Of a stretch of DNA of 64,000 bases, positions 32,690 through 48,715 are shown one piece after another (position 1 is the first letter of the stretch; every line of letters starts with the position of its first letter). Location of the stretch: contig OY759227.1 of the NCBI GenBank assembly GCA_963662175.1, positions 2,078,501 to 2,142,500 on the forward strand, written 5' to 3'. Source of the DNA: Aradus depressus. Taxonomy: Eukaryota; Arthropoda; Insecta; Hemiptera; Aradidae. The translations under genes were made by a program, and so were the position numbers. The notes beneath the pieces are model-generated. The model was not told where the DNA came from. It saw nothing but the letters and a program-made list of their open reading frames with translations, and did no database searches.

Positions 32690-33310
32690 GAAAAAAATTT
32701 AGGGGTAGGGTAAAAATTTAAAGTAGGGTTTAGAGGGAGAGCGGAAACTTATTGGGGTGTAGAGTGAGAGTGAAAACTTATTGAGGTTTAGAGGGGGAGT
32801 GGAAAATTATTGAGGTGTAGAGGGAGAGTGGGAACTTATTGGGGTGTAAAGGGAGAGTGGAAACTTCTTGGGTTTAGAGGGAGAGTGGAAACTTATTTGG
32901 GTGTAGAGGGAGAGGGAAAACTTATTGGGTGTAGAGGAAGAGTGGAAACTTATTGGGGTGTAGAGGGAGGGAGGAAACTTATTGGAGTTTAGAGGGAGAG
33001 TGGAAACTTATTGGGGTTTAGAGGGAGAGTGAAAACTTATTGAGGTGGGGAAGTAAATTGGTAGTGATTCAAAGGGGGGGAGCAGAAGTGAGGTGGAGGA
33101 GCAGATGTTGTGGTGGAGGAGCAGAATTGAGGAGGTGGTTGTGGAGGGATGTGTCTGTGAAGTGAGAGGGAGGTGAAGGATCTGTGTGGAGGAGATGGCA
33201 ACAGAACCGGCCTTTATACTCTACTTCTCATCACCGTCTTTTTTCTTACCTATAGACACAATATCACTCTGTTCTCCACTCTGTCCTCATATAAAAAAAA
33301 AAAACTCAAC
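32690..33310 (+). repeat. Module R2: 28-bp minisatellite and TATA segment
   Basis: About 11 units of the 28-bp repeat (GTGTAGAGGGAGAGTGGAAA type, 32735-33050). A purine-rich stretch follows, then CCGGCCTTTATACTC and a segment ending CTCATATAAAA. It is nearly the same as module R3 (38990-39505) in the same orientation. The I-type LINE is inserted at its right edge. If these modules are Polinton termini, this would be the end next to PolB; that is a hypothesis. Confidence 0.75.
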
Positions 33311-37052: not shown

Positions 37053-38008
37053 TTATTGAAAGAAATTCCCAACTCTATCTTTTATCAATTCTTTTAGTGT
37101 TACGCTATCAGATATTACCAATTCTTCTCTTGAAAAATATGAATTAATTATTTGCAAAAAGGTATTACGAATTTCGTCGACCGTCAGTCTTAACTTTTCT
37201 TTTTGATCTGTATTATTTTGTATGTAGGGATTGAATTTGATTATACCTCCTGCAGAATTTTTGGGGGTCGATGGAAGATATAATTACTTATTCAGATTTA
37301 TACCAAGAGATTGAGGGGGGGGGAGAATTGTCTGACCCTTTTGACGCCTTTTTTGAAATAAGAAGTAGTGGGGGTAATGGGGGTGGGGATATTCACTGGC
37401 TTCTTATGCAAATATGGAAATTCTTTAGTAGAATCAACTGTAGGCTTAGCAACAATACTGGAATAGCTCTTATTTTCCACCAATAATCTGGCATCTCTTA
37501 AAGGAATATTTTCGGTAGCCATGACTGTTTTAATTTTTTTCTGTTTTTGGTACTCTAAACAATTAACCTTGTCAATAGACGAGTGGACCTGATCGCAATG
37601 AACGCACTTTAAGGAGAGGGGGTGGGGACAGTCCTTTTTCTCATGCTCCCCGGAACATAAAGTGCACCTCAGTTTACCTTTACACTGGCTAATGTAATGA
37701 TTGTATCTAAGGCACCTAAAACATTGGGTCACGTTCTGAATGTAGGGCTCGACGGCACATCTTACATAATGAATATAAACATACTCAGGTAAAACCTGAC
37801 CTCTAAATGTAACAAGCACAGTATAAGTTGGTTTTTCAATTAGTTTATCATTTTCTTTAGTTTTTCTAATCATTCTCCTAACAGACACCAGCGTAGCACT
37901 AATTCCCAAATCATGTCTTAATGAAGCCATAATTTCTTCTTCCGACAAAGAGACGTCCACATTTCTAATGACACCCCGTCTTTTCACCAAAAAAGACGGC
38001 ACATACAT
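37053..38008 (-). pseudogene. LINE ORF1, CCHC gag-like protein, 5' truncated and frameshifted
   Basis: The frame 38008-37298 carries three zinc knuckles: CFRCLRYNHYISQC, CTLCSGEHEKKDC and CVHCDQVHSSIDKVNC. A disruption at a run of nine G (37315-37323) throws it out of frame. The remaining 85 or so codons continue in another frame to a stop at 37053-37055, two bases before the ORF2 ATG. The amino end is missing because the element is truncated at the PolB junction. The product would bind the element's RNA. Confidence 0.82.
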
Positions 38009-38825
38009 TTTTTAATTTTTTTACTTATATCCATAGCATATATCTTCGGTTTGAGTCCTACGAATTTATTAATGATAACACCATTAGTCTCATCTTTAAA
38101 CTTGCCTAGAATTTTTTTATTTAAAACAGAATAGCAAGGATGATCCTGCGGGAAATCAGACGTATCAAAATAATTCTTCATCGCTTTCATGTCCTGATAC
38201 CAATCGGGTGCATTAATTAAATAAACTAAACTGTCCGTATCTGTGTACATTAATTTTAGAGTATTAAGATTATATTTTTTCATCATTACATTATAGTGAA
38301 AATCGTACATCACAGTTTTGGACAAATCTAAAATCGACACGCCTACATATATAGGCTTTTTAAATAATAATTTAGTTTTACTCATAGTTACAGATACTAA
38401 GTTTTCATGATAAATTATCCTGTCTAGAAAGTTAGCTTTGGGGATGAGTTTCATTAATTTTTTAGAGTCTGTAACTAGCATCATGTTTATACGGTTTCTT
38501 ATGTTCTCCATTGTTTTGCCGAAAACAGCGTTATTCAAAAGTTTGTAAAAATCTTTTTCAAAATCATTTTTTGCCTTTTTTGGAAGCTCAGTATTACAGT
38601 CAATGTATGACTGTAACCAACGAGACTGTCGAAATTGTATCGCCCTATGAATTTTTTTAACTTTTAAGCCATGTTTAATAACTTGCTTTAAGTTGACGTA
38701 ATGCACAACATATCGCTCACAAGGATTGAAATGAGCAACTAATTTGTTTAATTTCCCGCCTGGAGGACTCACTGTCTCAGGTAAAAATGGTAAATCGTTA
38801 TGAGCTGATTGTAGTATAGTATTGA
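38009..38825 (-). pseudogene. Protein-primed DNA polymerase B, carboxy-terminal fragment
   Basis: Minus-strand frame beginning with SAHNDLPFLPETVSPPGG just after motif A. It continues with RYVVHYVNLKQ, FRQSRWLQSYIDCNT and KNDFEKDFYKLLNNAVFGK (motif B), and reaches YTDTDS (motif C, with both catalytic Asp). It ends with FVGLKPKIYAMD at the LINE junction. Motifs B and C are intact, but the exonuclease domain and motif A are absent here. The breakpoint matches that of the fragment at 19130-20060, which ends at motif A. The usual complete gene is about 1,000 codons or more, so this is about a quarter. Confidence 0.85.
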
Positions 38826-39001: not shown

Positions 39002-39505
39002 TATTGAGGTGTAGAGGGAGAGTGGAAACTTATTGGGGTGTAGAGGGAGAGTGAAAACTTATTGGGTTTAGAGGGAGAGTGGAAACTTATTTGGGTGTAG
39101 AGGAAGAGTGGAAACTTATTGGGGTGTAGAGGGAGGGTGGAAACTTATTGGAGTTTAGAGGGAGAGTGGAAACTTATTGGGGTTTAGAGGGAGAGTGGAA
39201 ACTTATTGAGGTGGGGAAGTAAATTGGTAGTGATTCAAAGGGGGGGAGCAGAAGTGAGCTGGAGGAGCAGAAGTGAGGAGCAGATGTTGTGGTGGAGGAG
39301 CAGAATTGAGGAGGTGGTGGTGGAGGAGCAGAATTGAGGAGGTGGTGGTGGAGGGATGTGTCTGTGAAGTGAGGTGGAGGTGGAGGATCTGTGTGGAGGA
39401 GGTGGTGACAGAACCGGCCTTTATACTCAACTTCTCATCACCATCTTTTTTCTTACCTATAGACACAATATCACTCTGTTCTCCACTCTGTCCTCATATA
39501 AAAAA
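38990..39505 (+). repeat. Module R3: 28-bp minisatellite and promoter, left edge of virion genes
   Basis: About eight 28-bp units (39002-39215), a purine-rich stretch, CCGGCCTTTATACTC (39414-39429) and a TATA-bearing segment shared with R2. It immediately precedes the first virion-cluster ORF. This position would fit a terminal repeat of the Polinton, but the matching inverted end was not found to the right of the integrase. Confidence 0.7.
39495..39503 (+). promoter_or_regulatory. Candidate TATA box at the start of the virion cluster
   Basis: CATATAAAA lies about 30 bases before the ATG at 39528, so a transcript would start almost at the start codon. The same segment is present in R2. In the opposite direction, GAGTATAAAGGCCGG (complement of 39414-39429) could serve a divergent transcript. 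Confidence 0.45.
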
Positions 39506-39527
39506 AAAACTCAACTTTCCACATTAG

Positions 39528-39965
39528 ATGATCGAAGAGTTTAAAGATAGTATTAATTGGGGGATTCTATCAGAGTTTGGTCGCTTAAGCGAAGATGTAC
39601 TACACAAGTATATAGGTAAGTTAGACTGGCATAAAATGTGTGGGTATCAATTACTTTCAGAAGAATTTATAATTAACCATAAGGAGTACATGGACTGGGA
39701 ACGTATTTCATGTAAGCAGAAATTAAGCGAAGACTTCATGCGGTTGTTTGCTGATAAACTCGACTGAAACCTGATATCCAGATGTCAAACACTAAGTGAA
39801 CCGTTTATTAGAGATCATTCCAACCTAGTGGACTGGGATGAGATTATCAAACATCAAGAACTTGGAATATATTTTATTGTGGAATTTAAAAATTTGTTAG
39901 ATTGGAACATTGTACTCAGTAATCAACCATATACATTACAAGAATATGTATCATATTTATGGTGA
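39528..39965 (+). pseudogene. DW/LSE repeat protein, one nonsense codon
   Basis: One frame from ATG 39528 to TGA 39963-39965, interrupted only by a TGA at 39765-39767. It is made of about six units of 22-24 residues with the pattern DW..I....LSE.F (for example LDWHKMCGYQLLSEEFI, MDWERISCKQKLSEDFM). The internal TGA falls exactly where the repeat has Trp, so it is best explained as a TGG-to-TGA change. Similar short repeats occur in proteins of large DNA viruses; the function is not known. This is the first gene after the putative promoter. Confidence 0.75.
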
Positions 39966-40056
39966 AATAAATTTTTTTTTTTAACATATAATGTTTTATT
40001 AATCCTACCCATAATCCTATATATAAGTTACATACAGGTATAGTTATCAGTCATAT

Positions 40057-40663
40057 ATGAAACGTCCAAGGAATCAGACCAGTGGTGGTGGAATAATCGA
40101 TTGGGCAGTCGATCATTTACCGTTTGAAGCCCATCTTCCAGGATATTCTTTTTGCGGTCCTGGTACACACTTACAAAACCGACTTAGGAGAGGGGTATAA
40201 ACAAACTTGACGAAGCGTGTAGGAGGCACGACATATTTTACTCAAAGCACAAAGATAGTAAGGAGAGATCAGTTGCAGACCAACAATTGGCGAACGAGGC
40301 TTGGGAACGTGTTATAGCTAGTGATTCTAGTTTAGGTGAGAGGGTTGCTGCGTGGGCAGTAACAAACACAATGAAAGTTAAATCGAAATTGGGTGGTGGT
40401 GTGCGAAGGAAGGTAAAAGAAGCGGTAATTGCTGCTAAAAAATACTTTAAGAACAAAAAAATTAAAATTCCTAGAGTCATTTCATTTCCGAAGACCGGTG
40501 GAGCTCCGTCATTAATTCCTCTATTTGCGGCCTGAATGAAGCAAAAGAGAAAAGAGAGGAGATGAAAAAAGGCGGTGGACCCGAAGTTAAAATTGCTAAG
40601 GGGCTTTATTTGAAACCCCACAAAAAGGGTTATGGGTTATTTCTGAATCCCTATCCTAGATAG
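40057..40663 (+). pseudogene. PLA2-like minor virion protein, two frameshifts
   Basis: ATG 40057 starts a frame with LPGYSFCGPGTHLQNRLRRG, the calcium-loop-like part of a phospholipase A2 of the parvovirus VP1 type. It stops at 40198-40200. The second frame carries LDEACRRHDIFYSKH with the catalytic His-Asp pair and then a helical, basic region, ending at 40533-40535. A third frame continues with GLYLKPHKKGYGLFLNP to a stop at 40661-40663. In parvoviruses such a domain in a minor capsid protein helps virions leave the endosome; a similar role here is inferred. The gene is broken and inactive as it stands. Confidence 0.75.
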
Positions 40664-40678
40664 TATGATGGCGGGGCG

Positions 40679-41065
40679 ATGAGGAAAAAAAAAATCCCGA
40701 AATTTATAAGCCGTTTACCAAACAGGGCACTAACAAACATTGAATTGGAGGCTGTTGGAAGAAAACATAATAAACATTTTAGGGGGGTATACATGAGAGA
40801 AAGTTTGCCGCAGAGCCCCAGGAGGTATGAAAGGATTATTATAAACTTGGATGAAGAAGCTAACCAGGGGACACATTGGGTGTGTGCTTCTAAACAGGGG
40901 GGTGATATCGTTTATTTTGATAGTTTTGGAAATTTGCAACCACCAATGGAACTCATGAAATATTATAAGGGATATAATGTAAACTACAATCGCACAAACT
41001 ATCAGTCGTTCCCGAGCAGTAAGTGTGGTCACTTGTGTCTAACATTCTTATACTATCTAAAATGA
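40679..41065 (+). CDS. Adenain-type cysteine protease (Polinton PRO)
   Basis: An intact 128-codon ORF. The catalytic order of adenovirus-type maturation proteases is complete: His66 in GTHWVCA, Asp81 in YFDSFG, a Gln at 109 for the oxyanion hole and Cys116 in SSKCGHLC. It would cleave capsid precursors during particle maturation. The domain is shorter than adenain, as is usual for Polinton proteases. Its stop codon overlaps the start of the next gene (ATGA at 41062-41065). The preceding PLA2-like gene ends 15 bases upstream. Confidence 0.9.
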   Translation: MRKKKIPKFISRLPNRALTNIELEAVGRKHNKHFRGVYMRESLPQSPRRYERIIINLDEEANQGTHWVCASKQGGDIVYFDSFGNLQPPMELMKYYKGYNVNYNRTNYQSFPSSKCGHLCLTFLYYLK

Positions 41066-41928
41066 GCATAACAGTTATTCTTGAAGGAGTCACTTCTGAG
41101 CTGTCATCAAAATATTTTCCCCCGATAGTACTGGACCCTAATAAGTCCTGGTATATCGGACTTTTATCATTGGATACATACAATTCAATTCTAAACATTA
41201 TCCAGGGTGTTAATAATGAAATTGTAATTATACCAGGTGATTCAAAACCGACACCCAAAAAAACTATAACAGAATTAGTAACTATACCAACGGATGGAAA
41301 ACCTCTTCCTAAAAAGGTGATATCACCTAAAACATCTCAGGGTGAATCGGAGGTTCAGGCAACATTTACAATAATACGCCCCCAAAAACCTATAACAGTT
41401 AAATTGTCACAGGGTGCATATGAGGTTTCACAAATCAATGAAACATTGAAAGAAATATTAGAACATAAACATAGTGTAGGACAACTGCCTTATAAACCTA
41501 TTATAGATATAACGAGTAATACGAGCACAAAATTATGCTCTATCAAAAGTAATTATGACATTGATTTTACACAAGCGCGCAGTATAGGAACAGTGTTGGG
41601 GTTCAGATCATATATTAAGTCATCAGAGGGGCGACAGTGGTCATCTGAGGAAGTACGTATATCACCCATTAGTCTTATACAATTGGAGTGTAGTCTGGCT
41701 AAGGGGTCCTATAAAATCGGGGAACCAACACACAATATATTTCAGTTTTACCCCAACGTCCCAGCAGGATACAAGTTGAGCATAAACCCTAGAAATATCA
41801 TTTATCATCCTGTGAATACACAATATATCGATAATATTACAGTACGCTTGGTTAGTCAAAACGAGGAGCTGGTGGACTTTAATGAGGAAGATATTTCAGT
41901 GCGCCTACATCTTAAAGCATGGGAATAA
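41062..41928 (+). CDS. Polinton minor capsid (penton-like) protein candidate
   Basis: 289 codons from ATG 41062; upstream codons in the same frame lie within the protease gene. The frame is intact. It begins MSITVILEGVTSELS and has the segment WYIGLLSLDTYNSI. A central ITVKLSQGAYEVSQINETL and the end VSQNEELVDFNEEDISVRLHLK give a strand-rich protein without catalytic motifs. The position between protease and major capsid, and the sequence type, match the minor capsid (penton-like) protein of Polintons, which would occupy capsid vertices. The identification rests on similarity of pattern and order. Confidence 0.75.
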   Translation: MSITVILEGVTSELSSKYFPPIVLDPNKSWYIGLLSLDTYNSILNIIQGVNNEIVIIPGDSKPTPKKTITELVTIPTDGKPLPKKVISPKTSQGESEVQATFTIIRPQKPITVKLSQGAYEVSQINETLKEILEHKHSVGQLPYKPIIDITSNTSTKLCSIKSNYDIDFTQARSIGTVLGFRSYIKSSEGRQWSSEEVRISPISLIQLECSLAKGSYKIGEPTHNIFQFYPNVPAGYKLSINPRNIIYHPVNTQYIDNITVRLVSQNEELVDFNEEDISVRLHLKAWE

Positions 41929-42095
41929 ACTTTATAACGAGGTGTACAGCATTGCAGGGGCGTAGTAGACAACAAGGAGTGCAACGGTTAACACATCAGA
42001 ATATTCAATTTCTTCAAGCTATTGATCACAAAGTGAATCATAATGCTGGAGGTAGAAGAATCGTACCATTTCGACGAGTCAACAATAAAGTATGA
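41919..42095 (+). CDS. Small basic ORF between the two capsid genes
   Basis: 58 codons from ATG 41919, overlapping the end of the minor capsid gene by 10 bases and the start of the major capsid gene by 53. The product is rich in Arg, Gln and Asn (RCTALQGRSRQQG, GGRRIVPFRRVNNKV). A small basic protein could bind packaged DNA, like adenovirus core peptides, but this is a guess. The nested overlaps at both sides and the clean frame in a decayed cluster argue that it may be real. Confidence 0.4.
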   Translation: MGINFITRCTALQGRSRQQGVQRLTHQNIQFLQAIDHKVNHNAGGRRIVPFRRVNNKV

Positions 42096-43129
42096 CGTTC
42101 AAACACATCAGCCCTATTCAACACTAACATATAACAACCTGGATGAGATAAAAATATCAATAAATCAACAGAATATATTAACATTACCCTCCGAAAGTTC
42201 CATTTACATCGAGGGAAAATTGACGGGTGAAGGTAACACAGTTAAATTCATTAACAATTGCTGGGCATATCTCTTTCAAGAGGCTAAATATACATTAGCT
42301 GGGACAGTTATTGAACATGTGAGAAACGTCGGAATCACAACCACAATGAAAGGATTAGCATCATATAATGATTCCCACGTGAAGTCCCTATCACATGCAG
42401 GTTGGGGGAATTCATTGGATACTATAAATATAAATTCAAATGGTTATTTTAATGCAATGATCCCCCTCAAAGCAATATTCGGAAGTTGTGGAGATTTCGC
42501 TAAAGTCATCCTTAACCTTCCTCACGAAATTTCGCTCACCCGTGCAAAGAGTGACGTAGACGCTGTTGTGGGGGCGACTAATGCATCAAAATTCACTGTC
42601 AACTTGACAAAAGTTACCTGGAAAGTACCTCACGTAACTGTCTCTGATCATGAAAAGTTAAATCTATACAAGATAATAAAGAAGGGTACATTTCTCAATG
42701 TACCATACCGTGTCTCGGAGCTATAAGAAAAACCGTCACTCCCACCCACAACAAGCCATAGCTGGACAGTGAAGACGTCTGTTCAATTGGAAAAGCCTCA
42801 TTATGTTATAGTGGGTTTTCAGTCGGGTAGGAAGGATAAAGTAGGGAAAAACATGGCACACTTTGATCATCATGAGATTTAAACATTCGTCTTATGATGT
42901 GAGAGATCAGTGTTTAATTGACTATGCGCAGTTCAAGTCACTAGCACCATTTATAGTTGTTGATTGTTCAAAACAAGATGATGGTATAAAAACAGGCAAT
43001 GTGGACATTAGAGTTGAAATACAAACAGCCAAGACCTTTCCGGCAGACCAGGCTATAGCATATGTTTTAATAGTTCATGACCGTATAATTCAGTACAATC
43101 CTGAAAATAATTTAGTCAAGACACAATGA
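42043..43129 (+). pseudogene. Polinton major capsid protein, broken
   Basis: ATG 42043 begins a protein with YDVQTHQPYSTLTYNNLDEI, LPSESSIYIEGKL and RNVGITTTMKGL. These are features of the double-jelly-roll capsid protein of insect Polintons. A TAA at 42724-42726 interrupts the frame, which continues to 42880 (WTVKTSVQLEKPHYVIVGFQ). The last part is in another frame (FIVVDCSKQDDGIKTGNVDIRVE...VHDRIIQYNP) and ends at 43129. Between these, some residues of the second jelly roll seem to be deleted. At about 355 residues it is shorter than usual. It would form the hexon-like capsomers. Confidence 0.85.
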
Positions 43130-43720
43130 AGCTCGAGCGAATTGATTTAGGTAAATTTGAGAGAAGTAACAATTGGATACGCCACAACAGCCTATTTCCA
43201 CATTCATCTGTCCGTTGTATTATAGCGGCACCCTCTGGAAGCGGTAAAACTGATCTTCTAATAACTCCTTTGTTACACCCTAATGGACTACGTTTTGAAA
43301 ATATTTATCTCTTGACAACAACCATGAAGCAAACAAAATACCAAATGTTAAAAGATATTGTTGAACGTGTCCCCGGAATGAACTTTTTCACCTTTTCAAA
43401 CAGTGAGGATGTACCTAAGCCACAAGAAATGAGCCCAAATTCCATTTTCATAGCAGATGATGTCATTAACCAATCTCAAGACCGAATAAGGGACATTTTT
43501 GCATATGGTAGGCATTACGGGGTTGATGTTATTTACCTAATTCAATCTTGGAGCCGCCTGCCTAATTGTGGTAGGTGATATTGTGGTAGGTGATATGCCT
43601 CTGTCAGAATTTCAAAACTTATGTAATTATTGTTGGGCAAAACAATATGGATATATTGTGATAACTTTAGAGCAGACTGATGGCCGCTATACATGTGAAT
43701 TTAATGAACCTCTAAAATAA
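43126..43720 (+). pseudogene. Genome-packaging ATPase (FtsK/HerA type), broken
   Basis: ATG 43126 overlaps the end of the capsid gene by four bases. Walker A is APSGSGKT (residues 35-42) and Walker B is SIFIADDV (residues 106-113). IFAYGRHYGVDVIYLIQSWSRLP follows. The frame then stops at 43576-43578, next to a 14-base direct duplication (about 43568-43596). The carboxy end (MPLSEFQNLCNYCWAKQYGYIVI) is in another frame and ends at 43718-43720. Residues between the two parts are missing. The ATPase would drive DNA into the capsid. Confidence 0.88.
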
Positions 43721-43732
43721 AGTATTAAGAAA

Positions 43733-45299
43733 ATGATGTGTGTATTATTTATCAACCCCCTATTTAATCACAATGTCATGGAACGCGCTGACAGTATGAC
43801 AGGAATCATGGAGCTGTTCACACTACTTATCTGCTGTTCCATGACTGAGGCTTTAGAAATTAATGATGCTGTAGGGTACCTAACGCAATATGGATATTTG
43901 TCGGACGGTGCCGTGTCTATCAATGAATTGATTACGAATGCTTTGGTACTATTTCAAGAAACCTATAACCTAACACCGGATGGTGAACTTAATAACGACA
44001 CATTGAGTATGATGTCCTTACCGCGGTGTGGTGTTAGAGACATTCCTGAATATTCCTTATCCAGCCAAAAATGGAATAAGACCGTGATACGGTGGCACTT
44101 TGTCAAAGTCACACCCGCAATACTTAACGTCACAATAAAGGCATTTAGCATTTGTGAAGAACATGCCAATATTCATTTTGTGCACGAGAACCTTCCCGCC
44201 AGACATACTTATTTCAACACAGAGATTGAATCATTCATATCGTGTAACAACCCAGCCCTGTCCTTTCCCATTTCATGGTATCGGTAATTTTCTGGCTCAT
44301 GCGTATTTCCCATCAGCCTCCAATACACCCATTGAGATTCATATGGACGGAGATGAGACGTGGAATACCCAAGAATTAGACCTACCAGGAGAAACAAATA
44401 TGTTATTGGTTTTGATTCATGAAATCGGTCACACCTTAGGAATTGCTCATTCAGATAAAACGGACTCTATAATGTTTCCAGTATATAGAGAGACAAACAC
44501 CGGGCTAAGTCTTGATGATATACAAGCAATACAAAAGCTATATGGTGTGCGCGATGAAACCACTCATCCAACTACCAGCAACACCAGTGAAATACCACCG
44601 GAAGAGCATAAACACATGCCTGACTTGTGTACAGTTAAAAGTAATCTCCTGTTTGTAGTTCTTGATAATCGCTTGTACATATACAATGATAGGTGGGTTT
44701 GGTCGTTTTCTTGTAGTGAACTAATTCAAAATGATGCAACAATAAGACCTTTAATATATATTACAGATCTACTCCCTTTTCTAAACAAAGGTTTCTGAAA
44801 CCTTACAACTGTATATCAAAGACCCACAGGCGAAGTCGTTATGGTGCTTGATGATCTAGTTTATATGATGTCATATCCAGATTTAAAAGTTATATCAATA
44901 TTCCCTAAACAAGTAAAATCATTTATAACTGGTTCTGTTATTAGTATAGTAAATAAGTATCGTGGTATAACATATATTTTCAAAGATAGTACATACGTTA
45001 CAGAAGCATCTGAAAGTCCTAATGTATGGAGTGGGAATTCTAGGATTTTAACCGAGATTAAACATCATGATATTTTCACATTATTTTCTCATCTACCTCT
45101 ATACGTTATAAAGAATTTAAATTCTGTTTTTCGCTATACTAATGGAAATTTATTCTTCTTCTACAATGAGAGTCGATATTTTTATGAAAATAATGAATTT
45201 ACTAAAGCTGTTATAAGAATAGGTCAAACAGACCTTCAAGCCTTATTTAACATTCCATATTTACCCACAGTTGATAAGGGCATTGTTCAATCAGCCTGA
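43733..45299 (+). pseudogene. Matrix-metalloproteinase-like protein within the Polinton
   Basis: Layout of a secreted matrixin. It has a hydrophobic signal (from Met at 43796, ELFTLLICCSMTEA), a propeptide with a peptidoglycan-binding-like fold (YLTQYGYLSDG...LFQETYNL) and the cysteine switch PRCGVRD (residues 97-103). The catalytic domain holds the zinc site HEIGHTLGIAH and a Met-turn (SIMFP), and about 220 residues of possible hemopexin-like propeller follow. A one-base shift near 44200 separates the propeptide from the zinc site. A TGA at 44796-44798 interrupts the frame, which continues to 45299. It is intronless and co-oriented between ATPase and integrase, so it belongs to the element. 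Such an enzyme could act on basement membrane during spread; that is an inference. Confidence 0.85.
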
Positions 45300-45314
45300 A
45301 ACGGTACCCACTAG

Positions 45315-45887
45315 GAAATTAAGCATGAATTTTCCTCTGATTTAGATTATTATTTAAAGCAGTTAAAAGAGGGTCATACTGAGAAATTAGATACAACCTA
45401 TGGGGTCTGGTATCACGAAAGGACACAATCATTTTATGTTGGAAATTCAATAATTAGTTTAGACGAGGATGAAGTTCAAGTAGCTGGTCAAAAATATCAA
45501 ACAACCCCAGGACTTTTAGCATTATTATTTTTGAAAAAAACACAGATACATGAAGTGCAGGATTTAGAAAATTATAAAGACATATTAAGCAATACCCACG
45601 CTCATAGACGAGGGTATTCAACATCTGGACACATTGTTAGAAATCAGACCCTGAAATACAAAGACATTATCGCAAAATTGTTTCCGAAAAAGAAAAAAAT
45701 CGGTGGCTATCTACCTGGGTATGTCATGCGGGCAAACAGGCCAATAATTGAATATTATTCCAATATCAATCAGCTGGTAGACCGGCTGCGTATTTTGTAT
45801 GCTTCAAAAGCAGCAGGACATACTGGGCACGATAATGAAATAAGTGCTTTAACAGACGAGTCGCGAACACTTAATGTCATTTCCTAA
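45315..45887 (+). pseudogene. Conserved Polinton protein of unknown function, start lost
   Basis: An open frame follows a TAG at 45312-45314, without an ATG in its first 70 codons. It reads YGVWYHERTQSFYVGNSIIS, YQTTPGLLALLF, ENYKDILSNTHAHRR and KKKKIGGYLPGYV, ending with ASKAAGHTGHDNEISAL. In insect Polintons a protein with this 'TPGL' and 'YKxIL' layout commonly lies beside the integrase. Its role is not established to my knowledge. Its end overlaps the integrase ATG by 14 bases. The true start may be in another frame or deleted. Confidence 0.65.
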
Positions 45888-46659
45888 GATGCAGTCAAAG
45901 GAGAAGATTGTCAATGAAATATACGCCCCCGCAAGGATCAACTATATACGTAGAAAATATAATTTGAAGGGGGTTGGTGATTTGTGGGAAATTGATTTGA
46001 TGGGTGTTTCAAACTATAACAAACACAATAAAAATCACAGTTTTATATTAGTTGTTATTGACGCGTTTACAAAATATGCCTTTGTGGAAGCCCTGAAAAC
46101 AAAGAGAGGTGATGAAGTGGTTCAAGCTATGCGTAAAATTCTAGACAGAGCAAATTTCAAACCGCATCTACTACAATCGGATAGAGGCAAAGAATTTTAT
46201 AACAAAAATTTCACCAAATTAATGCAAAAATACAATATAAAACATTATAGTACATTTTCGAAAATTAAATGTGCTCACGCAGAAAGATTCATTAGGACCT
46301 TACGTGACAGACTTATGAAAAATTTAAATATTAGAGGAACATCTGAATACCTGAGCATATTACAAAATATTGTGAAGGAGTATAATGAAACTGTTCACTC
46401 TACAACTGGTCTGAGACCAAAAGACATTACATCAAACGATGATGTAAGACTGCAAACACCTAAAATAATCTCTAACAAGCTATTATCGGTTGGAACTTTC
46501 ATTCGAATTTCTAAGCATTTAGGCATATTTACTCGAGGATACTACCCGAGCTGGTCAACTGAAATTTTCAAAATCAAAGAAGTTCTCCAACATACCATCT
46601 TGGGGACTTACAGGGACAACCAATCTTGGGTGGGTTTTATCGAGAAGAAATCAAACTAA
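45874..46659 (+). pseudogene. Retrovirus-like integrase, tail displaced
   Basis: 261 codons. The DDE core is complete: Asp41 in LWEIDLMGV, Asp103 in LQSDRGKEF and Glu137 in AHAERFIRTL. The later segments VHSTTGLRPKDI and LSVGTFIRISK are typical for Polinton and retroelement integrases. The frame stops at 46657-46659. The native carboxy end appears to continue in another frame into the sequence now found at 48613-48715, beyond the inserted LINE. It would insert the element's DNA into the host chromosome. No H2C2 zinc finger is evident upstream of the core in this frame. Confidence 0.88.
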
Positions 46660-46678
46660 CAGAAATTACAGACATCTA

Positions 46679-48600
46679 TCTATCTATCTCTCTGGCGCTA
46701 CAACCCTAGTGGGTCCTGGCCTCCTCAATGAGCCTTCGCCATTCGGCTCTGTCCTGTGCAGCTGCTTTCCAATTTCGCTGTCCAAGAAGCTCTCTCGCGT
46801 CAGCTGCCACACCATCCACCCATCTTAGCCTCGGTCTGCCTGCTCTTCTTGATCGGTACAAAGGCTCCTCAAGGACTGTTCTTGGCACTTCGCCCTCTTC
46901 CGTTCGGGCTACATGGCCTGCCCAACTCAACCTTCCCAACTTCACCACCCTCACTACATCAGCCTCACCAAACAGCTCGTAGATTTCCCTATTCTTGCGA
47001 ATTCTCCAAACCAGTCCGTCCTTCACAGGGTTGAAAACCCTTCGAAGAATTTTCCTTTCAAATATCAACAGGTCCTTCTCGTCAGACTTGGATAGGGTCC
47101 ATGTTTGACTGGCGTAGATAAGGACTGGACGGATCAGGGTCTTATAGAGTCGGAGTTTGGTATGCCTGCTCAGTAGAGAGCTTCGCATATGCCTCAGCAA
47201 TCCAAAATAGCATCGATTCGCTTCCGTAAGTCTTTTCTTAATTTCGGCTGATGTCTCGTTCCTGGTGGTGATTTGAGAGCCCAAGTACGTAAATTCTTTG
47301 ACCCTTTCGAAGGAATATGGGCCAATCGATATACTTCGGCAATGGGGGTTCGCGTCTACACCTGTGTACATATATTTAGTCTTGGACTCATTTATTCGTA
47401 GGCCCATTGCGGCTGCCGCTTCCTGCAATCCCAGAAAGGCACTCTCAAGAGCTAGGAAAGACCGTGTAACAATATCCAAATCATCGGCGTAGCCGAGCAG
47501 TTGGACTGATTTTGAAAATATTGTGCCCCTTATTCGAATACCGGAATCCCTCACTACTTTCTCTAGGGCTAAGTTAAACAGTAAGCAAGCTAGGGCATCA
47601 CCTTGCCTCAATCCCTTGCTAGAGGGAAACTCTGAAGAGTAGTCCGACTGAATGCGTACTTTACACTGCACGTCTTGCATCGTCATTCTGACCAAGCGAA
47701 TCAGCTTCGAGGGGATATTCATTTCCTCCATAGCTTTATAAAGTTTGGGCCTTCTTACGGTTTCATATGCGCTTTTGAAATCGATGAAGAGATGATGAGT
47801 GGTCATTTTAAATTCATGGCTTCTTTCCAGGATCATACGAAGAGTGAAGATTTGATCAATAGTTGATCTCCCCTTCCTAAAACCACTTTGGTACTTACCA
47901 GTTTCCCGTTCGGCAAAAGGAACAAGCCTGTTATAGAGGACATTAGAGAGAATCTTATATGCGCACTGGAGCAGCGAAATTCCGCGGTAGTTGGCACATT
48001 CTAGTTGCTCCCCTTTCTTATGCACTGGGCACACAAACGCCTTTTTCCACTGAATAGGAATATCTTCTTGCATCCAGATCATGAATACTAGATCGTACAT
48101 GGCTTTGTACAGTGCTTCGCCACCATACTTAAAAAGCTCAGGTGGTAGTCCATCATCTCCAGGTGCCTTATGATTTTTCATTTGAGCAATCGCGTTCTGA
48201 ATTTCTTCCAGCTCAGGTGGCTCTATTTCTCTATCATCCTGGTTGATGTCGGGGATCTCATAATTCTCTTCCGAGTCAATTGCTCCTTCATTGAGTAATT
48301 CATTGAAGTGTCTAGTCCACCTATGAAGTACATCCTCCTTATTAGTAAGAAGCGAACAATCTTCTTTTCTACAGGCCAGGAGCCTGGGTTTAAAGGGGGC
48401 TCTTCCTTTGTTAATTTTCTGGAAGAAAATTCTATTCTTATTTGTATCCCTCATAATCTCTACTTCTTCGAGCTGCTTGTTCTCCCATTCTCGTTTCTTC
48501 TTTCTATGGAGTCTCTTCTCAATGCGTCTTTTCATTCTATAATTTTCGGTTGCCTGCCTTGTGTACCGTCTCTGAACCATAGTTCTATATGCCCTCTACC
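46679..48600 (-). mobile_element. RTE-type LINE, 5' truncated, 12-bp target duplication
   Basis: Flanked by the direct repeat TACAGACATCTA (46667-46678 and 48601-48612). The 3' end on the minus strand is a short GATA-type repeat (46679-46692 region), as often seen in RTE elements. It lacks the endonuclease. The insertion splits the end of the Polinton integrase region. Confidence 0.9.
46706..48580 (-). CDS. RTE-type reverse transcriptase, truncated at the amino end
   Basis: A 624-codon open frame. RT motifs are AFVCPVHKKGEQLECANYRG, GKYQSGFRKGRSTIDQIF, HLFIDFKSAYETV (motif A), GLRQGDALACLLFNLALE and LGYADDLDIV (motif C). The carboxy end has RRPVLIYASQTW-like and GRPRLRWVDG segments of RTE elements. 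The endonuclease domain that should precede it was lost by 5' truncation at 48600. The frame itself has no stop, so the insertion is recent compared with the Polinton around it. Confidence 0.88.
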   Translation of the reverse strand: MVQRRYTRQATENYRMKRRIEKRLHRKKKREWENKQLEEVEIMRDTNKNRIFFQKINKGRAPFKPRLLACRKEDCSLLTNKEDVLHRWTRHFNELLNEGAIDSEENYEIPDINQDDREIEPPELEEIQNAIAQMKNHKAPGDDGLPPELFKYGGEALYKAMYDLVFMIWMQEDIPIQWKKAFVCPVHKKGEQLECANYRGISLLQCAYKILSNVLYNRLVPFAERETGKYQSGFRKGRSTIDQIFTLRMILERSHEFKMTTHHLFIDFKSAYETVRRPKLYKAMEEMNIPSKLIRLVRMTMQDVQCKVRIQSDYSSEFPSSKGLRQGDALACLLFNLALEKVVRDSGIRIRGTIFSKSVQLLGYADDLDIVTRSFLALESAFLGLQEAAAAMGLRINESKTKYMYTGVDANPHCRSISIGPYSFERVKEFTYLGSQITTRNETSAEIKKRLTEANRCYFGLLRHMRSSLLSRHTKLRLYKTLIRPVLIYASQTWTLSKSDEKDLLIFERKILRRVFNPVKDGLVWRIRKNREIYELFGEADVVRVVKLGRLSWAGHVARTEEGEVPRTVLEEPLYRSRRAGRPRLRWVDGVAADARELLGQRNWKAAAQDRAEWRRLIEEARTH

Positions 48601-48612
48601 TACAGACATCTA

Positions 48613-48715
48613 CCTAGATGAAAAAATAATAATAAGAAAAGCCTCCAACATATTAGTAAAGTGGTTGGGATTTGAACAGCCAGAATGGATAAATGTAACA
48701 GATATAATGAAATAA
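48613..48715 (+). pseudogene. Chromodomain-like end of the integrase
   Basis: A short frame with ILVKWLGFEQPEWINV, which resembles a chromodomain, ends in TAA at 48713-48715. Chromodomains occur at the carboxy end of many Polinton and chromovirus integrases and guide them to modified chromatin. Across the LINE insertion this frame would follow the integrase, but the integrase frame as read today ends at 46659, so a frameshift near 46620-46650 is also needed. Confidence 0.6.

Follow-up and report, generated by a model that had tools for sequence, protein, structure and literature searches.

An Old Matrix Metalloproteinase Gene in One Polinton Lineage of Aradus depressus

Introduction

The matrixins (M10A), among them human proMMP-1, MMP-7, and the insect matrix metalloproteinases (MMPs), are the described proteins that most resemble the product of the Polinton gene analyzed here. 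The likeness covers a propeptide with a cysteine switch, the HExxHxxGxxH zinc site, the Met-turn, the hinge and perhaps, by way of the predicted fold of a relative (P0003), a hemopexin-like C-terminus. The Polinton gene differs from the matrixins in being intronless, in hemopexin repeats that are too diverged for Pfam, and in an altered structural-metal loop.

MMPs are also known from DNA viruses. Granulovirus MMPs are thought to aid virus spread (excerpts of PMC4192325), the nudivirus HzNV-2 encodes an MMP (Hz2V068) with MMP and hemopexin-like domains and a possible signal peptide (excerpts of PMC3280521), and a matrixin cluster is common to entomopoxviruses and baculoviruses (excerpts of PMC4411684). 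The granuloviruses (betabaculoviruses) are a lineage unrelated to Polintons, to which they are likened here as DNA viruses with an MMP; the carriers of Hz2V068 and of the entomopoxvirus matrixin are large DNA viruses, not Polintons, and are likened by description. Nematode Mavericks carry a cargo protease that is not known to belong to the matrixins. Their cargo is described as proteases and kinases (wosp, krma) in excerpts of a meeting report that mention no matrixin (PMC10680173), and the likeness to the elements described below lies in captured accessory genes that include a protease.

No paper joining Polintons and a matrix metalloproteinase was found in the open literature (subscription papers and preprints lie largely outside this search), and the Polinton literature searched was free of the term “matrixin”. 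The only co-mention of polinton and metalloproteinase that was found is a poxvirus entry in a table, to which a search for Maverick added a polydnavirus review. The main texts of PMC11071296, PMC11071308, PMC8363768, and PMC10120064 contain neither “metallo” nor “matrixin”, and that of PMC12587646, a 2025 paper on horizontally transferred MMP genes, contains neither “virus” nor “polinton”. Viral MMPs and Polinton cargo proteases are already known; an MMP in a Polinton is a combination not found in the literature searched. It bears on the long-standing question of whether the Polintons of animals pass from host to host in the form of virus particles.

Results

A Degenerate Polinton in the Window

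The window, which is the whole 64-kb stretch of DNA that was analyzed, corresponds to C14:2078501-2142500 in a genome of 698 Mb in 74 contigs. It holds the remnant of a Polinton with the following parts.

39526..48715 (ends approximate), + strand: Polinton remnant of subfamily B, both ends lost; blastn matches to pieces L096, L046, L052, L053, and L054 span 39526-48693, and the C-terminal integrase frame stops at 48715
40061..40200, + strand: remnant of a phospholipase A2-like virion gene; tblastn matches (82-92% identity) in 9 of 14 sibling pieces, intact relative L046:8965-9759 matching PF08398 (4.6e-13)
40679..41065, + strand: probable protease, which we take to be the adenain-type cysteine protease of Polintons; kept in sibling copies, no Pfam match
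41071..41928, + strand: probable capsid gene, presumably for the minor capsid protein; kept in sibling copies, no Pfam match
42043..43129, + strand: major capsid protein (double jelly roll), split over two frames; PF21738, 1.2e-37 on 42043-42726 (intact relative 2.1e-99)
43126..43578, + strand: packaging ATPase, 3′ end broken; PF04665 (Pox_A32), 2.4e-7
43733..44287, + strand: MMP piece 1, with signal peptide (by eye), propeptide with the cysteine switch PRCGVRD, and start of the catalytic domain; PF01471 (8.6e-6) and motif
44262..44795, + strand: MMP piece 2, with the catalytic domain containing HEIGHTLGIAH and the Met-turn, the hinge, and a first hemopexin-like part, then TGA; PF00413, 1.4e-27 on 44154-44798
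44841..45299, + strand: MMP piece 3, the remaining hemopexin-like region; no Pfam match, 55% identity (149 codons) to the C-terminal region of an intact 507-aa copy
45315..45887, + strand: Polinton gene between MMP and integrase, assumed by us to be DUF8207-like; open frame (sibling frame L030:2557-3126), kept in siblings, no Pfam match
45874..46659, + strand: integrase, N-terminal and core part; PF00665 (rve), 3.4e-13
46706..48580, − strand: non-LTR reverse transcriptase inserted into the integrase; antisense open frame of 624 aa, named by eye
48590..48715, + strand: integrase C-terminal part; frame read by eye, 48658-48693 matching L053:8205-8240

The initial annotation had described an intronless MMP gene with a signal peptide, PRCGVRD, HEIGHTLGIAH, and a Met-turn, and each of these is found here, the signal peptide by eye and the catalytic domain also by its Pfam match. 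Its treatment of 43733..45299 as a single readable gene did not hold, since pieces 1 and 2 lie in different frames and a TGA at 44796 separates pieces 2 and 3; the copy in the window is therefore dead, in an element without either end. The location between ATPase and integrase proved right, with an ATPase of the Pox_A32 type at 43126-43578 on one side and an rve integrase at 45874-46659 on the other, but the DUF8207-like gene intervenes before the integrase and the integrase is split by the reverse transcriptase. The terminal repeat of the relatives has no match anywhere in the 64-kb window.

Tandem repeats with unit lengths of 20 and 29 bases form long arrays from 17247 onwards and at 32714-33137 and 39023-39303, one of which adjoins the MMP element on its left side. 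Inverted repeats with perfectly matching arms, 786 to 1588 bases in length, are found at 51324-52911/53580-55167, 50400-51214/55539-56353, and 28113-28898/30138-30923, the first pair holding a frame that by eye resembles a fragment of a piggyBac-type transposase.

A PolB fragment at 37984-38772 (− strand), in which we take YTDTDS to be a polymerase motif, was considered as a part of the MMP Polinton and rejected: its close relatives (95%) are −/+ pairs ~7-11 kb apart that represent another kind of element. The fragment does not fit the MMP element because the intact relative bears a PolB-like gene of its own downstream of the integrase, of which a stretch within L092:608-2902 shares 54% identity with the fragment (248 residues); a Pfam polymerase match was found neither in the window nor in the intact copies. 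Matches to the fragment's family often form inverted pairs ~3-11 kb apart (e.g., C4:29033068, −, and C4:29043759, +), and in many such pairs each arm has a long open frame of about 1200 aa, as though PolB were part of both terminal repeats. The fragment itself (C14:2116487-2117272) has an identical inverted partner ~53 kb off, beyond the window (C14:2170440-2171225), which suggests a large inverted duplication around the locus.

The MMP Gene Occupies the Same Position in Sibling Copies

A Pfam matrixin search of the whole genome, the counts of which are lower bounds as in all genome-wide searches reported here, gave at least 24 matches among 27 scored candidates. Eight of these 24 are exons of three host MMP genes on C9 with introns inside the catalytic domain, and the other 16 fall into 15 places, the window included. 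In each of the 10-kb pieces taken around the 14 places outside the window, the MMP is preceded by an ATPase in the same orientation (14/14), and tblastn places the DUF8207-like gene downstream in nine pieces and the integrase in eight. The same position in other Polinton copies, which the initial annotation had named as a check, was thus found throughout. The copies belong to two subfamilies, A (11 pieces) and B (three pieces and the window).

An open MMP frame of 517 codons is present in three subfamily A copies, on C1, C9, and C14 (3 of the 14 pieces), and an intact copy matches PF00413 at 2.9e-33; 12 of the 15 examined copies have some interruption or are shorter. Identity between the copies on C1 and C9 is 99.97% over 6468 bases, so one of them moved very recently. 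The switch, the zinc site, and the Met-turn are kept in 14 of 15 copies, a recurrence which argues that these motifs are not due to chance. The cysteine switch reads PRCGV(K/R)D in 13 copies and PWCGVRD in one, and none was found in the remaining one.

A search with the intact protein gave at least 35 matches from 42 scored candidates, 33 of them in Polintons; grouped by hand, these 33 correspond to at least 19 places with the gene or its remnants, some being fragments and two adjoining on C1. Contig C14 (16.4 Mb) makes up 2.3% of the genome, yet it holds 11 of the 19 places (binomial 7.5e-14, for copies that are not fully independent) and also 43 of the 125 distantly related ATPases described below; it may be a sex chromosome or another repeat-rich contig.

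The Carriers Are Polintons of a Single Lineage

Both intact copies examined lie in complete elements (C9, 16211 bp; C14, 16052 bp) that start with AGTAGAG, finish with CTCTACT, and are flanked by 6-bp target duplications (GCGAAA and GGTATT). Their terminal inverted repeats are about 630 bp long with an arm identity of 98.4% (C9) and 93.0% (C14). The C9 element encodes the capsid (PF21738, 2.1e-99), an rve integrase (1.4e-11), the PF08398 phospholipase A2 domain (4.6e-13), an ATPase identical to one scored as PF04665, and, 3′ of the integrase, a PolB-like protein. The MMP carriers are Polintons, as seen from the double jelly-roll capsid, the A32-like ATPase, the integrase, the AG/CT terminal repeats, and the 6-bp duplications.

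With the ATPase of an intact copy as the query, 150 matches were scored of 370 candidates (220 ATPase candidates, like 329 of the 455 capsid candidates, are unscored). The 150 ATPases form two identity groups, 25 at ≥69% and 125 at ≤49%. An MMP or its remnant lies 3′ of the close ATPases in 10/10 complete and 7/15 partial cases, and the other eight partial ones have no MMP within 3 kb. Near the 125 distant ATPases scored, 83 of them on contigs with MMP places and 42 on contigs without any, no MMP was found; the nearest is separated from an MMP by 6.5 kb and belongs to a neighboring element, with a capsid gene of its own at its side, and the next nearest is 20 kb away. Capsid genes from other Polinton families number at least 126 in the genome (those scored of 455 candidates), and none of the 126 lies inside a carrier when coordinates are compared by eye. 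HExxHxxGxxH is absent in six frames from three control pieces directly 3′ of other ATPases, and also from four pieces 3′ of other capsid genes, which do not reach the ATPase flank and hence are not direct controls.

A general presence of the MMP in Polintons was rejected on the grounds of the 125 distant ATPases. The occurrence after 10 of 10 complete close ATPases versus none of the 125 distant ones scored makes the MMP a fixed gene of one Polinton lineage, and its absence from the vicinity of the distant ATPases and from the elements with the 126 other capsid genes indicates that Polintons in general can do without it.

Age, Selection, and Exchange

The MMPs of subfamilies A and B are 56% identical over 450 codons, with a dN of 0.35 and saturated dS; by comparison, the dN between A and B is lower in the ATPase (0.18), the capsid (0.19), and the integrase (0.29) and higher in the downstream gene (0.41). 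Within subfamily A, the dN/dS of the MMP is 0.27 and 0.31 (two pairs, with only 14 and 15 changes), and within subfamily B pairs it is 0.26-0.55. The difference at 44% of residues between the subfamilies, at saturated silent sites, identifies the MMP as an old gene under purifying selection.

Two subfamily B copies (L052 and L054) have an ATPase that is 71-77% identical to that of the window (43126-43578), and their MMP and capsid pieces are about 87-96% identical to those of the window. An exchanged ATPase beside a more similar MMP points to recombination between Polinton subfamilies in which the MMP was kept.

Relatives of the Polinton MMP

A protein database of 5.8 billion sequences was searched by a method that depends on exact word matches and comparable protein length. 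The few matches obtained (one with a 178-aa piece, three with the intact 507-aa frame, and four with an alignment) are therefore not a measure of rarity. The nearest relatives among these matches are P0003, a protein of 519 aa on a 1929-base contig that is 36% identical over 92% of the intact 507-aa frame, and P0002, a 248-aa fragment annotated in the beetle Diorhabda sublineata that is 53% identical to MMP piece 2 of the window (44262..44795) over 75 columns. Next comes a cellular protein, the MMP-14 of Anabrus simplex (31% over 45%).

In a first tree of 24 rows, some of them very long, the branch joining the Polinton MMPs, P0003, and P0002 had a support of 90/76. A second tree of 17 rows, made after dropping L059, L004, L006, P0005, L064, L061, and L062, has the same sequences on one side of a branch with 93/93 support, which is below the star level of the tool. 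In this tree the Diorhabda fragment does not separate as an outgroup to the two Polinton subfamilies, and host gene 1 is close to the Anabrus MMP. AU tests reject a union of the Polinton copies with host MMP gene 1, 2, or 3 (p = 6.1e-5, 2.6e-4, and 1.0e-3), and they do not reject a union of the wider family, including P0003 and P0002, with host gene 1 (together with Anabrus), 2, or 3 (p = 0.16, 0.06, and 0.14).

Scans of viral contigs with matrixin queries (19 + 7 + 23 rows) showed no baculovirus matrixin among the loci inspected, and the loci with listed neighbors (L001, L002, L072, and L074) appear phage or bacterial by eye. The same contigs gave no sibling Polinton with the ATPase query. 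One phage-like contig encodes a 402-aa matrixin with a PRCGVRD cysteine switch (L001:5383-6591) near genes that look terminase-like by eye.

Predicted Protein Features

The HxD loop is the structural-metal site of MMPs, a typical but not a defining feature. This canonical structural-zinc loop is absent from the Polinton MMP alignments. In all five aligned proteins the loop is longer than the HGD..PFDG of human MMP-7, His140 is kept, and Cys149 is present (numbering of the intact copy), which suggests that Cys may replace the Asp ligand of the structural zinc.

The hemopexin repeat has no Pfam match in the Polinton proteins but is detected in the 36% identical relative P0003 (PF00045, 1.4e-10). 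The structural model of P0003 has a mean pLDDT of 50.6, with poor quality in the catalytic domain; most of residues 321-480 reach 70-85 and form four beta blades by eye. Its top PDB match is human proMMP-1 with a full-length alignment at a TMt of only 0.38, and against the hemopexin domains of MMP-2, -9, -12, -13, and -14 the TMt is 0.73-0.77. Piece 3 of the window is classified as hemopexin-like because the intact 507-aa copy aligns to P0003, the C-terminal part of which is predicted to fold like hemopexin. No furin site was seen by eye in the Polinton MMP. Judged from its sequence, the signal peptide (by eye), the switch, and the catalytic site would be those of a secreted zymogen.

Discussion

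The MMP is an old gene of one insect-type Polinton lineage and probably encodes a secreted, self-inhibited enzyme that helps the virus to breach matrix. The lineage took up the gene long ago, and selection has retained it since. The protein made from an intact copy would be secreted, the PRCG cysteine switch would hold it inactive, and proteolytic removal of the propeptide would yield a zinc endopeptidase that acts outside the cell and may pick substrates by a hemopexin-like domain of four blades. By cutting basement membrane or other extracellular matrix, such an enzyme could allow virus particles to spread between tissues or to reach the germ line. The initial annotation had put forward a new viral accessory function. 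As regards gene content, position and siblings bear this out; secretion, activation, enzyme activity, substrate, and benefit are inferred, and the tissue-barrier role is suggested by analogy with granulovirus MMPs.

Where the gene came from and whether it serves the element can be judged from its distribution. A recent processed copy of the species' own MMP that landed in one Polinton, which the initial annotation had named as the finding that would overturn its reading, might account for an intronless gene of the matrixin family. This explanation is practically negligible given that the MMP is present in two old subfamilies with saturated silent divergence and in the same position in 14/14 pieces, that the host genes have introns, and that the AU tests reject a union with each of the three (p = 6e-5 to 1e-3). 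It is very improbable that the MMP is a hitch-hiker without selection of its own: 12 of 15 examined copies are broken in some way, which speaks for a passenger, but the dN/dS between the subfamilies is well under 1, the catalytic landmarks persist in 14 of 15 copies, and two subfamily B copies combine an exchanged ATPase (71-77%) with an MMP that is about 87-96% identical piecewise. A transfer of the MMP to Polintons from a granulovirus, nudivirus, or entomopoxvirus, or in the opposite direction, appears rather unlikely; such viruses do carry matrixins (excerpts of PMC4192325, PMC3280521, and PMC4411684), and the wider family, with P0003 and the Diorhabda fragment, can be neither joined to nor separated from any particular cellular MMP (AU p = 0.06-0.16).

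The main rival to the proposed role concerns the substrate. A secreted viral protease of the same anatomy could act mainly against host defense or physiology (e.g., hemolymph proteins, melanization, or cell-surface signals) and not on tissue barriers. A granulovirus MMP expressed from another baculovirus alters melanization (excerpts of PMC4192325), and tissue remodeling by the HzNV-2 MMP was suggested by the authors of that genome (excerpts of PMC3280521). The present data fit the substrates of either reading, and we hold an action chiefly against defense or physiology to be unlikely. Under the preferred reading, an enzyme that breaches matrix, the retention of the MMP in two old subfamilies is indirect evidence of an extracellular stage, since an element confined to the nucleus would have little use for a secreted enzyme that degrades matrix. 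This suggests that the MMP-carrying elements are, or once were, viruses with a need to get across tissue barriers.

A broader proposal is that the MMP-Polintons are, or formerly were, infectious viruses across the insects, which took a cellular MMP once, changed its metal site from His3Asp to His3Cys, and have kept it as a dedicated virulence factor. We regard this proposal as tentative and on balance doubtful. If it is true, the MMP and the virion phospholipase A2 domain would give a Polinton tissue spread and endosomal escape, and the MMP-Polintons would be true animal viruses, not merely transposons. Apart from this proposal, the gene places a further lineage of DNA viruses among the carriers of an MMP, and it can serve as a marker for finding related elements in other insects.
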